DNA from: a virus
Reading direction: 5' to 3' (one strand)
Length of the DNA: 24,236 bases
IMG/VR virus record: IMGVR_UViG_3300023171_000039
Span: 1 to 24,236 of that record
The position numbers were made by a program, and so were the translations under genes. Below the pieces are notes generated by a model that saw only the letters and a program-made list of their open reading frames with translations, made no database searches and was not told the origin of the DNA. Below are positions 5,737 through 17,811 of this stretch, one piece after another; the first letter of the stretch is position 1, and each line of letters begins with the position of its first letter.

Positions 5737-5838
5737 CTAGAGCGCACCCAGCACGAAGCAGGCCGTCAGGATAACGACCCAAGGGGCAAGCCCGTATGCG
5801 GCCAGCCATAGGCATACGCGTGACCGAGACGGGCTCAC
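5737..5838 (-). CDS. Micro membrane peptide, 33 aa
   Basis: A GTG overlapping the stop of the GapR-like gene (GTGA at 5835-5838) opens a 33-codon frame: [20 protein letters not shown] followed by [13 protein letters not shown]. It is a basic head plus one transmembrane segment. The coupling to the gene before it and the clean hydrophobic segment support it. It would be the last gene of the leftward immunity operon. Function unknown. Confidence 0.5.
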
Positions 5839-6668
5839 GAGACGAGCTCCATTTCCAGAGCCGCGATGATGTCGGCCTTACGCTTGGGCTCGATCTTGAT
5901 GAGCGCCTGGGCGACGCGGCTTTTATCGGCATCGGACATCATCCGGCCGGCGACGTTCCACTTGATGCAGTCGATCAGCGGATCAGTGCCGTCGTACTGC
6001 ATGACCGGGTAGAAGGCCGTTTGACCATCGAGGCCGACCGTGCGGCTGGCGCAAAGATACCGTGCCCATCCATCCAGGATCTCGTCACCAATCATCACGA
6101 CTGGTTCGGACTTGGCCCCAGAGATATCGTCGGCAATGACGTAATGATCTTGACCGAAATCGCTGAAGGCTCCGGAATACTTGTGGCGCTTGATGTCGTC
6201 GCTGTGTCGGCGAACCCATTCCACGCCATCGCCCGCTACTGTATCCGCCATGGTCTGTGCGCGGGTTACAGGGCCGTTCGCAGCATCAAGGGCGCGCTTG
6301 ATGATCTTGCGACCCGCCTCGGTCTTGTTGCCTTCAATGAAAGCCTTGACCAGATCAGCGTCGACGTCGCTCAAATCAACGGCAGCACGCATCGGCGGCT
6401 GATAGGGTTCATCCTCTGGCGGAGCCGCCACCATGCCCAACGCCCCCATGTAGAGGTCGAGAATGGCTTCGTGCTCCATCCGGTCGCTGGCATCCTGCTT
6501 ACGGAGGCGCACGATCTCGCGGATCACCTTTGTATCGAAGCCATTACCCTTGGCCTCGGAGTAGATTTCCTTGATGTCGCCCGCGATGGCCGATTTTTCT
6601 TCTTCCATGCGCTCGATGCGCTCGATGAACGCACGGAGCTGGTCTTGGGCTACGCTCTCTTCGGCCAT
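5835..6668 (-). CDS. GapR (DUF2312) domain fused to a ParB-like region, 277 aa
   Basis: Residues 1-80 match GapR/DUF2312: [20 protein letters not shown], then [20 protein letters not shown] and the end DLYMGALGM. GapR is an alphaproteobacterial nucleoid protein that clamps overtwisted AT-rich DNA ahead of replication and transcription; it is normally only 80-90 aa. Here a helical linker (about 98-132) and a C-terminal part follow. In that part [20 protein letters not shown] (191-210), [20 protein letters not shown] (229-248) and RVAQALIKI resemble the ParB/sulfiredoxin-like N-terminal domain (ILDG-x-x-RY, then N-x-x-R). The start abuts the preceding stop with no gap. The GapR call is strong, the ParB-like call moderate. 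A role in phage DNA topology, partition or copy control is inference. Confidence 0.8.
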
Positions 6669-7067
6669 CTATGCGACTCCAGAATTTATGTGAGCAGCGC
6701 TTACACTATGAACGTGGATCAGAGCGATCGACCGGGCGCGTCCCGGGATGCGGGTGACAAAGCCACGGTCGACCAGCGCGGTTACAAGCGCCTGGGCATG
6801 GCTAAGGCTGATGCCGAGGCCACGAGCCATCTCACGAAGGGATGGTGCCGGGTCGCGCTCATTGGCGCATTGAGCTTCGATGAACGACAGCGCCGACAAC
6901 TGAGGGGCTGTCAGGCCGAAGCGCGAGGCGGTAGGCTTTGGCCCAGCCTGCTGCCCAGCCATGAATGCGAGAGCAACCATCTCGACCTGTTCGGTTTCGA
7001 GATGTGCATCCCAATGATCCGCCGCCCACTGATAGATTTCTGGTGGAATATTGGCCGGGATGGTCAT
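6669..7067 (-). CDS. Winged-helix regulator with LexA-type DNA-binding domain, 132 aa
   Basis: Residues about 50-115 (LTAPQLSALSFIEAQCANER, then DPAPSLREMARGLGISLSHA and VDRGFVTRIPGRARSI) follow the N-terminal winged helix of LexA. There is no S24 peptidase domain, so it cannot cleave itself. The first 48 residues are a separate helical part. It follows the Cro-like gene with an ATGA overlap and precedes the GapR-like gene without a gap, so it is an immediate-early regulator. Targets might include phage operators or host LexA sites; that is inference. Confidence 0.75.
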   Translation of the reverse strand: MTIPANIPPEIYQWAADHWDAHLETEQVEMVALAFMAGQQAGPKPTASRFGLTAPQLSALSFIEAQCANERDPAPSLREMARGLGISLSHAQALVTALVDRGFVTRIPGRARSIALIHVHSVSAAHINSGVA

Positions 7068-7267
7068 GCTGCGGCCCCCTCAGATCGCGGCGCAAAGAAG
7101 TCAGCAGGCTTCACCAGCCCATCGCTCACCCGCTCGATTTCCTCGATTACGGAGAGCGTCAGATGCTCACCACGCATGTAGCGGTGGACCTGTTGCCTGC
7201 TCTTTTTGAGCTTCTTGGCGAACTCGGTTACGGTGGAGTGCTGTCTTATGTAGGTTTCAAGCTGCAT
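7064..7267 (-). CDS. Cro/YdaS-like helix-turn-helix protein, 67 aa
   Basis: A short HTH protein (VTEFAKKLKKSRQQVHRYMR GEHLTLSVIEEIERV) divergent from the repressor gene, in the position of cro. It is the first gene of the leftward operon. There is no Shine-Dalgarno before the ATG, and a 19-bp operator (7267-7285) abuts the start codon. With a -35 TTGACA at 7303-7298 the transcript would begin at or near the ATG, so leaderless translation is likely. It probably turns off the repressor gene and tunes early transcription, as Cro does. Confidence 0.8.
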   Translation of the reverse strand: MQLETYIRQHSTVTEFAKKLKKSRQQVHRYMRGEHLTLSVIEEIERVSDGLVKPADFFAPRSEGAAA

Positions 7268-7285
7268 GTAACAGTTTTTGCTACA
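7267..7285. promoter_or_regulatory. Operator O1 (19-bp dyad)
   Basis: TGTAACA-GTTTT-TGCTACA is a near-perfect dyad with 7-bp arms and 5-bp spacer. It matches the reverse strand of the site at 9108-9126 in 18 of 19 positions. It covers the start region of the leftward Cro/GapR operon. Confidence 0.75.
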
Positions 7286-7303
7286 TCACAGGTCGCATGT
7301 CAA
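7276..7303 (-). promoter_or_regulatory. Leftward early promoter of the Cro-like operon
   Basis: A consensus -35 TTGACA is read leftward at 7303-7298. The -10 falls near 7281-7276 and is poorly conserved (GCAAAA). Operator O1 overlaps it and O4 lies just upstream. The predicted start of transcription is next to the ATG at 7267. Confidence 0.45.
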
Positions 7304-7309
7304 GCGCAC

Positions 7310-7328
7310 TGTAACATTTTCTGGCATA
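7310..7328. promoter_or_regulatory. Operator O4 (weaker 19-bp copy)
   Basis: TGTAACA-TTTTC-TGGCATA agrees with the operator consensus in 14 of 19 positions, with a perfect left arm and a poor right arm. It starts 43 bp, about four helical turns, from O1 and precedes the repressor start. It may serve autoregulation of the repressor. Confidence 0.45.
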
Positions 7329-7343
7329 GATGCGGCAACGGCC

Positions 7344-8084
7344 ATGGCCAATAACTGTCGCATGGCAAATTGGCTCGCACCGTTCCTCGAGAATTCACCA
7401 GTTACCTCGCAGGAGGAGCTTGCGGACAAGCTCGACGTGTCGCGCGCCACGATCAATCGGCTGGCAAATGACCACTCGAAATTGAAACGCGATCGCGCTG
7501 AGGCGATGGCAGCACTGCTGAAAGTGACTGCGGAAGACCTAATGCTAAATCGCTTGCCGTGGGCGGCGAAGACCAGCCCACCGGTGGATGACGCCGCCGT
7601 GACGCGGGGTAAGCGCCTGGGCAAGGCAATCCTCGTCGCAACCGTCGAGGCCGGCGCTTGGCGTGAGGTTGACGAGCTCGATCAATCTGACCCGGAGTGG
7701 GTCGCCGTGCCGCCCGACGATAAATACCCAGACGCGACACAAGAGGTTTACGCCGTTTCTGGCGACAGCATGAACGCGCTGCAGCCCCATCCTATTACGC
7801 CTGGCTCCCGTCTGGTCGCCGTGCGGTACGACGAGATCGCGTTCCGCGCGCCGCTCCGCGATGGGCTTGTCGTTGTCATCCAGCGGTCACGCAATGGCGG
7901 CCAGGAGCGCGAGCTATCGGTAAAGCAAGTCGCCTGGTTCGATGACCGGATAGAGTTTCAGCCGCGATCTACAAATCCAAAACACAAGCCGATCGTAGTC
8001 GAGCACGACACCTGGGAGGATAACGGGGTCGAGGTCGCGATCGTGGGGTTGGTTAGAGATGTCATTCACAGGCTGCCGGGATAA
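7344..8084 (+). CDS. CI-like S24 repressor, self-cleaving type, 246 aa
   Basis: The N-terminal HTH is at residues about 21-45 (TSQEELADKLDVSRATINRL). A C-terminal S24/LexA peptidase fold follows, with the Ala103-Gly104 cleavage site (VEAGAWREV), the catalytic Ser142 (SGDSM) and Lys194 (ELSVKQVAW). Such proteins keep lysogeny and cleave themselves when stimulated by RecA filaments. The start is uncertain: ATG at 7344 or 7362, neither with a Shine-Dalgarno. The frame opens back to 7278 but that would run over operators O1 and O4. It is divergent from the Cro-like gene and followed after 15 bp by a membrane-protein gene. Confidence 0.9.
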   Translation: MANNCRMANWLAPFLENSPVTSQEELADKLDVSRATINRLANDHSKLKRDRAEAMAALLKVTAEDLMLNRLPWAAKTSPPVDDAAVTRGKRLGKAILVATVEAGAWREVDELDQSDPEWVAVPPDDKYPDATQEVYAVSGDSMNALQPHPITPGSRLVAVRYDEIAFRAPLRDGLVVVIQRSRNGGQERELSVKQVAWFDDRIEFQPRSTNPKHKPIVVEHDTWEDNGVEVAIVGLVRDVIHRLPG

Positions 8085-8099
8085 TCGGAGGGGGAATTT

Positions 8100-8435
8100 A
8101 TGGCCAATCAAGGGGGCGGTGCCTTAGTGTTTCTGGCACTTGGCGGGCTATGGTTTTGGCTGGGGAACCCAAGCAAAGATGCGGCCGATTGGTTCTATAA
8201 GACCGATGCGGCGCCATGGGAAAAGGTTGACGCGTTTTACTACCCGAGCAAGTTCGACCTATCCGTCTGGCATTCCACAAAGGGCTTAAAGAACGCAGAA
8301 GCCTGTCGAGACTGGGTCTATGAGATGGCTGCGGTGCGCGCTGATCCAGGCCTTGTTCGTGGAGACTATGAATGCGCCCTTGGTGCACCTTACAACTCGA
8401 ACGGCATGGAGGTGTACCGCGCTACCGTCAAATAG
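8100..8435 (+). CDS. Membrane-anchored protein cotranscribed with the repressor, 111 aa
   Basis: The first 25 residues hold one transmembrane or signal-anchor segment (GALVFLALGGLWFWLG). The rest is probably periplasmic and has two Cys (AEACRDW and DYECAL, about 30 residues apart) that could form a disulfide. GGAGGGGG stands seven bases before the ATG. The 15-bp gap to the repressor suggests expression in the lysogen. In other phages such genes alter the host surface or exclude superinfecting phage, but no family is recognised and that role is inferred from position only. Confidence 0.75.
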   Translation: MANQGGGALVFLALGGLWFWLGNPSKDAADWFYKTDAAPWEKVDAFYYPSKFDLSVWHSTKGLKNAEACRDWVYEMAAVRADPGLVRGDYECALGAPYNSNGMEVYRATVK

Positions 8436-8458
8436 TGCGGTCCACAAAAGCGCCGGCA

Positions 8459-8767
8459 TCACTGCAACCGAGACAAATCAAACGCCCGCAGTATGCTCTG
8501 TATTTCCATCACCGCCATCGGATCGAGATGGCACATGGTCATGGCTCCATCAGCCCTCGGTTCTTCACCAGGCTCAGGCAGCTTGTTCATGATCGGCACG
8601 ACAGTGAATTCGTCGTCGCCGCTCAATGGTCCGAATGGCTCGATCCTGAACCGGTAGAGCGGGAAATGCGCCTCAAGGTATAGGCTCAGGCGCTCGGCCG
8701 CCCACTCTGTCGCCTTGCCCTGGTTCGCTGGCGCAATGACGATGAAGTCCTTCACGCTATGCTGCAT
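8459..8767 (-). CDS. Hypothetical protein in a LexA-boxed operon, 102 aa
   Basis: Reads MQHSVKDFIVIAPANQGKAT onward, a probable alpha/beta fold with an acidic second half. The ATG at 8767 overlaps the end of the zinc-ribbon gene by 11 bases; a longer frame to 8818 lies inside that gene. It is the second gene of a leftward operon behind a GTTC-N7-GTTC LexA box and converges on the repressor operon. A SOS-induced antirepressor would fit here, but no similarity is recognised. Confidence 0.65.
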   Translation of the reverse strand: MQHSVKDFIVIAPANQGKATEWAAERLSLYLEAHFPLYRFRIEPFGPLSGDDEFTVVPIMNKLPEPGEEPRADGAMTMCHLDPMAVMEIQSILRAFDLSRLQ

Positions 8768-8981
8768 GGCGCGATCCAGCGATTTTGAACGCGACAATTT
8801 CAGCGAACGGCGCCTCACATTTCGGGCAGCGGAACTGCATATTCCTCACCTCGGGGAATTCCATCAACTGATCGCCGTCCATTGGCTCGCCCTGCCCCGC
8901 CGGCAGCACTACGCTTTGCTGGTACAATTTCGCGCATCCTCCACACCGCACGTGGAGCAAGACCGAGCTTCCGTCACACAT
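8757..8981 (-). CDS. Zinc-ribbon protein, first gene of a LexA-boxed operon, 74 aa
   Basis: Two CxxC pairs, Cys13/Cys16 (RCGGCAKLY) and Cys52/Cys55 (RCPKCEAPF), 36 residues apart, mark a small zinc ribbon that may bind protein or nucleic acid. The ATG at 8981 has a strong AGAAGGAGG five bases upstream. The LexA box at 8996-9010 lies 14 bp before the start, where LexA would block transcription. It thus should be made during DNA damage. By position it is a candidate antirepressor or induction factor; that is inference. Confidence 0.7.
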   Translation of the reverse strand: MCDGSSVLLHVRCGGCAKLYQQSVVLPAGQGEPMDGDQLMEFPEVRNMQFRCPKCEAPFAEIVAFKIAGSRHAA

Positions 8982-8995
8982 CGCCGCCTCCTTCT

Positions 8996-9010
8996 GTTCC
9001 TGTTATGTTC
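8996..9010. promoter_or_regulatory. LexA (SOS) box upstream of the 8981 operon
   Basis: GTTC-CTGTTAT-GTTC is an exact GTTC-N7-GTTC, the LexA site of alphaproteobacteria. It lies 14 bp before the start of the zinc-ribbon gene and about 65 bp from the phage operators O2/O3. An exact match by chance in a given short intergenic region is unlikely, and a second exact match also lies before a gene start (17797-17811). Confidence 0.75.
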
Positions 9011-9075
9011 TCATTAAGACCGGGAACACAGAAAGAGTCGAGTCGCAAAACCCGTAAAATGCCAGCAAAGGGTGA

Positions 9076-9094
9076 TGTTGCAGTTTATGCTACA
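9076..9094. promoter_or_regulatory. Operator O2 (19-bp dyad)
   Basis: TGTTGCA-GTTTA-TGCTACA has the same 7-5-7 layout as O1 and O3 and differs from the reverse of O3 at two positions. It lies 32 bp, about three helical turns, from O3, upstream of the rightward promoter. Confidence 0.7.
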
Positions 9095-9100
9095 TCACAG

Positions 9101-9128
9101 TTGACAGTGTAGCATAAACTGTTACATT
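9101..9128 (+). promoter_or_regulatory. Rightward early promoter
   Basis: A consensus -35 TTGACA (9101-9106), a 16-bp spacer and a -10 TACATT (9123-9128) precede the rightward early operon that ends in int. Operator O3 fills the spacer, so repressor binding would exclude RNA polymerase. Transcription should start near 9135. Confidence 0.65.
9108..9126. promoter_or_regulatory. Operator O3 (19-bp dyad)
   Basis: TGTAGCA-TAAAC-TGTTACA is the reverse complement of O1 with one mismatch. Together with O2 it also forms a perfect 14-bp inverted repeat, CAGTTTATGCTACA (9081-9094) and TGTAGCATAAACTG (9108-9121). It sits between the -35 and -10 of the rightward promoter. Confidence 0.75.
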
Positions 9129-9172: not shown

Positions 9173-9355
9173 ATGAAGCACAGCAAGGAAGCAAATCTCG
9201 GTCACGGCTGGATGGCAAAGCTTCATTCGGCCGACGGCGTCGAGGCGCTGTGCCTCCGCAATACCGAAACTGGTGGGCTGATCAATCTCCCCGATGAGAG
9301 CGTGAAGCGCCTGCGGGCAATCTTCGACGCCGTCGACGGCAAGGTCGCCGCTTAG
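9173..9355 (+). CDS. Small hypothetical protein, 60 aa, first gene of the rightward operon
   Basis: Reads MKHSKEANLGHGWMAKLHSA and onward, a compact, probably beta-rich protein. Three in-phase ATGs lie at 9161, 9167 and 9173. I choose the third because GGAG (9163-9166) is six bases before it. As the first gene after the repressed rightward promoter it is immediate-early; no family is recognised. Confidence 0.65.
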   Translation: MKHSKEANLGHGWMAKLHSADGVEALCLRNTETGGLINLPDESVKRLRAIFDAVDGKVAA

Positions 9356-17796: not shown

Positions 17797-17811
17797 GAAC
17801 GAAATGAGAAC
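17797..17811. promoter_or_regulatory. Second LexA (SOS) box
   Basis: Read leftward it is GTTC-TCATTTC-GTTC, an exact GTTC-N7-GTTC with the T-rich spacer common in alphaproteobacterial LexA sites. It lies 37 bp before the HTH gene at 17759 and just after the last late gene (stop at 17827). Confidence 0.75.

Follow-up and report, generated by a model that had tools for sequence, protein, structure and literature searches.

Does a single repressor govern this viral locus from two separate operator clusters, and which protein reads the sites there? We analysed the 24,236-bp IMG/VR virus record IMGVR_UViG_3300023171_000039 (hereafter the window), in which four copies of the palindrome TGTARCA-N5-TGYTACA start at 7267, 7310, 9076, and 9108. 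Sequence comparison suggests, with a probability of roughly 0.87, that the locus serves a temperate phage as its immunity region, with one repressor and one 19-bp palindrome, present in two clusters about 1.8 kb apart that flank the repressor gene. The repressor is very likely to bind at both arms. The initial annotation had proposed such a two-arm circuit resembling lambda OL/OR, and this reading is supported because the site and the DNA-binding domain are inherited together, because that domain has been swapped naturally on two C-terminal backgrounds, and because the sites in host genomes are nearly confined to the arms. The central features are as follows.

7267..7285, plus strand: left-arm site 1, an exact consensus match that adjoins the start codon of the Cro-like gene
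7310..7328, plus strand: left-arm site 2, with three mismatches; relatives have the same 43-bp spacing and TGGCATA
9076..9094, plus strand: right-arm distal site, with one mismatch
9108..9126, minus strand: right-arm proximal site, an exact consensus match
7362..8084, plus strand: repressor with a lambda-CI-like helix-turn-helix (HTH) and a LexA/CI-type S24 domain, from Pfam, profile match, and predicted fold
7064..7267, minus strand: HTH protein resembling Cro, encoded divergently to the repressor, with an ATG directly next to site 1

A scan of the window confirmed the four copies with the coordinates and identities first reported for them. The stretch 7267-7285 reads TGTAACAGTTTTTGCTACA; 9108-9126 is identical to its reverse complement at 18 of 19 bases, there are two differences between 9076-9094 and 9108-9126, and 7310-7328 shares 14 of 19 bases with the 19-bp site. 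Over the 14 fixed positions of the consensus there are no mismatches at 7267 and 9108, one at 9076, and three at 7310. Scanning the whole window with up to three mismatches allowed gave no match beyond these four. Chance or plain sequence repeats could produce short similarities of this kind, and we estimated the expectation from 200 first-order Markov simulations of the window. Three sites were observed at up to one mismatch against a simulated mean of 0.005, and four at up to three mismatches against a mean of 0.83 and a simulated maximum of 5. The 7310 copy taken alone has no statistical significance, which is the point in favour of chance; we credit it as a site because its 43-bp spacing is constant in relatives. 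With three copies against 0.005 expected and conservation over 25 loci, we rejected the chance explanation, whose probability is negligible.

The window contains a divergent repressor/Cro-like gene pair with operators in between. The N-terminal domain of the repressor is an HTH (Pfam HTH_3, 5.9e-9), and the lambda repressor is the top match of the HTH profile among solved structures (E 5.7e-4). In the C-terminal half, the S24 family PF00717 of Pfam is barely over the threshold (23.4 versus 23.3 bits). Searches of the PDB by sequence gave nothing usable, neither with the whole repressor (no match at E 0.01) nor with the C-terminal profile (a single irrelevant weak match), and the S24 fold is therefore taken from the predicted model, which has a predicted local distance difference test score of 82.5, with values below 50 in the linker at residues 70-84. 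The predicted C-terminal fold matches LexA and lambda CI, including RecA-bound forms (Z 10-14). Across 21 sequences, Ser136 and Lys188 never vary, and conservation of Ala97-Gly98 is 90% or more (numbering from 7362), so that the S24 fold, the Ser-Lys dyad, and the Ala-Gly cleavage site are all present. RecA-driven self-cleavage would follow from membership in this family. The repressor had been annotated from 7344, which is less likely than 7362 (M-A-N-W-L); the latter is probably the translation start because relatives keep a methionine two or three residues ahead of N-W-L.

Are the sites inherited with this repressor? We collected 25 loci from viral contigs by alignment of the HTH half only, blind to the operator. 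At up to one mismatch, a left site lies just upstream of the repressor in 24 of the 25, the exception being L041 with three mismatches, and a right site lies downstream within the fetched DNA again in 24 of the 25. The exception on the right is L019, whose right arm lies farther along its contig, at a distance of about 5.5 kb. The spacing within the left arm is 43 bp in 27 of 28 loci (44 in L041, where the anchor was set one base off), and within the right arm it is 32 bp in 22 loci and 31 bp in four, with the partner unmatched in one (27 loci). These steps are close to four and three helical turns, respectively, as had been noted from the sequence of the window. Two contigs, L008 and L010, out of 11 found by the DNA pattern had no relative of the repressor HTH and were set aside as apparent chance matches. 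Some rhizobial relatives, among them L030 and L033-L036, have a third operator-like site with one to three mismatches, 53 bp from left site 1 and inside the Cro-like gene; it falls in coding DNA, and an operator role is therefore inseparable from protein conservation. The left arm of the window has no such third site.

Natural exchanges of domains separate the two halves of the repressor. A search with the C-terminal S24 half yielded 59 loci, of which two, both Devosia prophages, have this HTH and carry TGTARCA sites; in the 57 with another HTH, TGTARCA-N5-TGYTACA was found in none at up to one mismatch. In rhizobial relatives, the same HTH is fused to a second, different C-terminal domain. 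Of the 55 loci retrieved with that domain, 10 contain this HTH, and among these the right site is present in all 10 and the left site in 9; the 45 with another HTH have neither (0 of 45). The other HTH classes have palindromes of their own: GGATTTNAAATCC in class A, AATGTAN9TACATT in B, TGCGATNATCGCA in C, TCGTACN5GTACGA in D, and GCATTAATGC in E. The class motif occurs in both arms at up to one mismatch in 3 of 3 loci of the window's own class R0 (window included), 5 of 12 of class B (12 of 12 at up to two mismatches), 12 of 12 of C, 12 of 12 of D, and 1 of 1 of E, class A being taken up below. Off-class matches at up to one mismatch were absent, except for the short E motif in six loci and only in the 4.5-kb downstream stretch; at up to two mismatches, off-class loci with matches in both arms numbered two for motif C, four for motif E, and none for the others. 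A longest-common-word search was clear for C and E, with A, B, and D mostly within the null, and a palindrome search resolved B and D, and A in part. L005 is the clearest swap, in which the layout is kept and the operator changed in both arms: its C-terminal domain is 84% identical, and a leftward zinc-ribbon-like gene and a LexA box occupy the same place, whereas the HTH and the Cro-like gene are different and GCATTAATGC occurs twice per arm. An operator code emerges, in which each of six DNA-binding classes has a palindrome of its own that is shared by the two arms. The comparison yields candidate operators for related repressors from sequence alone; such palindromes predict which prophages share immunity, and repressor-operator recognition could be tested by simple swaps.

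A regulator of the host could also own the sites, the prophage merely carrying them along. When genomes were scanned for the HTH, it turned up in Devosia soli, Devosia sp. LC5, a Rhizobiales bacterium, and Sinorhizobium glycinis, and these four genomes (4.1-6.0 Mb) together have 12 matches at up to one mismatch, of which 11 lie in the two arms and one elsewhere in S. glycinis. We found no support for a host regulator and rejected this explanation as exceedingly improbable, since the host genomes have nearly no copies outside the prophage arms. The host of the phage is presumably a soil-dwelling, Devosia-like alphaproteobacterium, because the two closest prophages are both in Devosia.

The positions of the sites relative to putative promoters suggest how they might act.

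7298..7303, minus strand: TTGACA, putative -35 for leftward transcription of the Cro-like gene, lying between both left-arm sites
7322..7330, plus strand: TGG-CATAGA, a candidate extended -10 for the repressor gene that overlaps site 2
9101..9106, plus strand: -35 (TTGACA) of the rightward promoter, assigned from the hexamer and its conservation
9123..9128, plus strand: TACATT, the -10 of the same promoter, partly covered by the proximal site

Judged on consensus hexamers and their conservation, the operators overlap promoters. Column identity is 0.90-0.99 in the halves of the strong sites and 0.96-0.99 in the -35 elements, against 0.35-0.51 in nearby DNA that belongs to no site; conservation is lower for the distal right site (0.61-0.70). 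On the left, TTGAC of the -35 is invariant among the aligned relatives, and no -10 of the Cro-like promoter could be placed with confidence; the Cro-like mRNA might be leaderless, a guess we make because site 1 abuts the ATG. All 23 left arms that were compared have TGGCATA as the right half of site 2 (column identity 1.0); continuing into CATAGA, this half probably doubles as an extended -10 for the repressor gene. Such a double role as operator and promoter may be what makes site 2 a weak operator. On the right, the initial annotation had placed one site exactly between TTGACA and TACATT. Both hexamers are indeed present, 16 bp apart, but 9108-9126 is not exactly between them, as it occupies the spacer together with four bases of the -10.

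Several observations weigh against the two-arm reading. Many of the relatives' loci nearly duplicate one another, and where this HTH occurs on the second C-terminal domain, each of the 10 loci is on a contig already in the set of 25. Motifs A-E were derived from the same loci, and the own-class counts are therefore partly circular; the class A motif is found in both arms of only 6 of 16 loci at up to one mismatch and 8 of 16 at up to two. The reversed pattern gives 5-11 matches per host genome, so that a pattern with this letter content can reach this stringency by chance. The distance between the arms among relatives varies from 882 to 3779 bp, and is about 5.5 kb in L019; a range as wide as 0.9 to about 5.5 kb does nothing to favour a tuned loop. 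Finally, the Cro-like protein could in principle be the chief reader of the sites.

If the Cro-like protein were the sole or chief reader, the repressor would act elsewhere. A Cro-like relative accompanies the sites in all 29 loci with the repressor HTH (25 viral and four genomic, two Devosia prophages being counted in both) and in none of the 57 with another HTH, and its recognition helix, S-R-x-Q-V-H-R, is like S-R-A-T-[IV]-N-R of the repressor. Since the two proteins co-occur in 29 of 29 loci and were both exchanged in L005, the comparison cannot assign the sites to either. However, the two-arm palindromes vary with the HTH class of the repressor across six classes, and site 2 lies on the probable repressor promoter. 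We consider it quite improbable that Cro is the chief reader, and return to the repressor acting at both arms.

In lambda, the repressor and the divergent Cro share an operator cluster, a second cluster lies at the other early promoter, and the repressor gene and accessory genes are located between them. The window phage likewise has a cluster shared by the repressor and the Cro-like gene, a second cluster with the same operator at the other early promoter, and the repressor gene and others between the clusters, and the HTH profile and the C-terminal fold match those of CI. Unlike in lambda, the interval holds a leftward, convergent operon that has a LexA box, the steps are 43 and 32 bp, the operator sequence is unrelated, and each arm has two clear sites, whereas each of the two operator sets of lambda, which lie about 2.3 kbp from one another, contains three (PMC5880393). 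By comparison with relatives, the identity of the site, its occurrence in both arms, the fixed spacing, and its linkage to the DNA-binding half are established; beyond this, we infer direct binding, autorepression, Cro acting on the same sites, self-cleavage, and a loop bridged by the repressor. In a lysogen, the repressor would shut both lytic promoters, and its own promoter too at a high level. At the left cluster, binding to site 1 would cover the promoter and start of the Cro-like gene, and binding to site 2 would cover the repressor's own -10. At the right cluster, binding to the proximal site would cover the rightward early promoter over its spacer and -10, and the second site lies 32 bp upstream. 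Upon DNA damage, self-cleavage of the S24 domain aided by RecA would open both promoters, after which Cro would keep the repressor promoter down.

Does such a switch require the arms to be joined? The repressor might instead act at each arm independently, as at two separately repressed promoters without a DNA loop. The highly variable distance between the arms given above, together with the changing gene content of the interior, speaks for independent arms, and two sites per arm would satisfy pairwise cooperativity. On the other hand, lambda CI joins operator sets about 2.3 kbp apart, according to PMC5880393, and the predicted C-terminal fold is that of lambda CI, including its octamer structure (1kca, Z 10.6), although likeness of fold shows no oligomer. 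Independent action, which we would rate slightly below even odds, is a serious alternative to the loop; occupancy of both arms by the repressor is common to both.

The lambda-like two-arm switch is itself of a known kind, and its operator in the window was not met in the literature searched. The operator of Rhizobium phage 16-3 is ACAA-4/6 bp-TTGT, which differs from TGTARCA-N5-TGYTACA. This rhizobial temperate phage nevertheless has two operators in each of two arms (oL1, oL2, oR1, and oR2 of the C repressor), a likeness taken from the description in PMC12429752. That 2025 study reports that phiLM21-like Sinorhizobium prophages have neither lambda nor 16-3 operators, and that theirs may differ from known ones. 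In phiLM21 (L164), one class-C-like palindrome lies at 7251 between the repressor and the Cro-like gene, and within the 14 kb read no convincing second-arm partner was found. Sinorhizobium phages phi2LM21 and phi3LM21 have the same divergent CI/Cro-like pair (described in PMC5537653, in whose main text the word operator does not occur), and phi2LM21 has the C-terminal half of the rhizobial relatives. Their DNA-binding halves differ from that of the window, phi3LM21 belonging to HTH class A, and the phi2LM21 stretch read contained no TGTARCA site at up to three mismatches. We found no report of the operator in the literature on Devosia prophage repressors and rhizobial operators, with subscription papers mostly outside the scope of the search, and for the literal half-motif the matches listed were only unrelated work.

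The genes between the arms, and the first one beyond them, might add a second input to the switch.

8100..8435, plus strand: small open reading frame (ORF) 3' of the repressor, with a hydrophobic N-terminus
8459..8818, minus strand: leftward ORF between the arms, without a family match
8757..8981, minus strand: leftward ORF between the arms, a cysteine-pair protein with weak zinc-ribbon matches only
8996..9010, minus strand: LexA-box-like GTTC-N7-GTTC, preceding the leftward two-gene operon
9173..9355, plus strand: ORF that opens the rightward operon; the listed start is 9161, and by eye the ribosome-binding site is better at 9173

No Pfam or PHROG match was found for 8100..8435, and neither product of the leftward operon reached a family above the cut-off; by eye, 8757..8981 has a homologue in L005 and L018. 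GTTC-N7-GTTC, which we take to be the alphaproteobacterial LexA box, is found at the equivalent place in three close relatives (L003, L004, and L005), with variation in the seven inner bases. Because the box is kept in them, the earlier suggestion of an SOS operon inside the interval is plausible, and the leftward operon is a candidate for a damage-inducible antirepressor. A broader proposal would combine two parts: that the HTH half, the Cro-like gene, and the operators of both arms are inherited as a unit and exchanged as a unit between phages of rhizobia and of Devosia, so that a common LexA/CI-type chassis carries six or more immunity specificities, and that the LexA-boxed operon makes an antirepressor. 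We regard this combination as rather doubtful; if it were true, DNA damage would hit the switch by two routes, cleavage of the repressor and an antirepressor controlled by LexA.

Further observations concern neighbouring genes. In rhizobial relatives, a small protein convergent to the repressor resembles S24 without an HTH by eye (GDAMEPTLRGGRDY); it is encoded on the minus strand in L022 (5753-6106), L026 (5725-6072), L030 (6181-6579), L034 (5753-6154), and others, and could pair with or disturb the repressor. A second LexA-box-like repeat of the window, GAAC-N7-GAAC at 17797-17811, lies near a leftward ORF. Beside the Cro-like gene, 6669-7067 (minus strand) encodes a LexA-type winged-helix domain (PF01726, 2.2e-8) with no protease match in Pfam. 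The protein encoded at 5835-6668 (minus strand) has an N-terminal GapR-like DNA-binding domain (PF10073, 2.7e-34).

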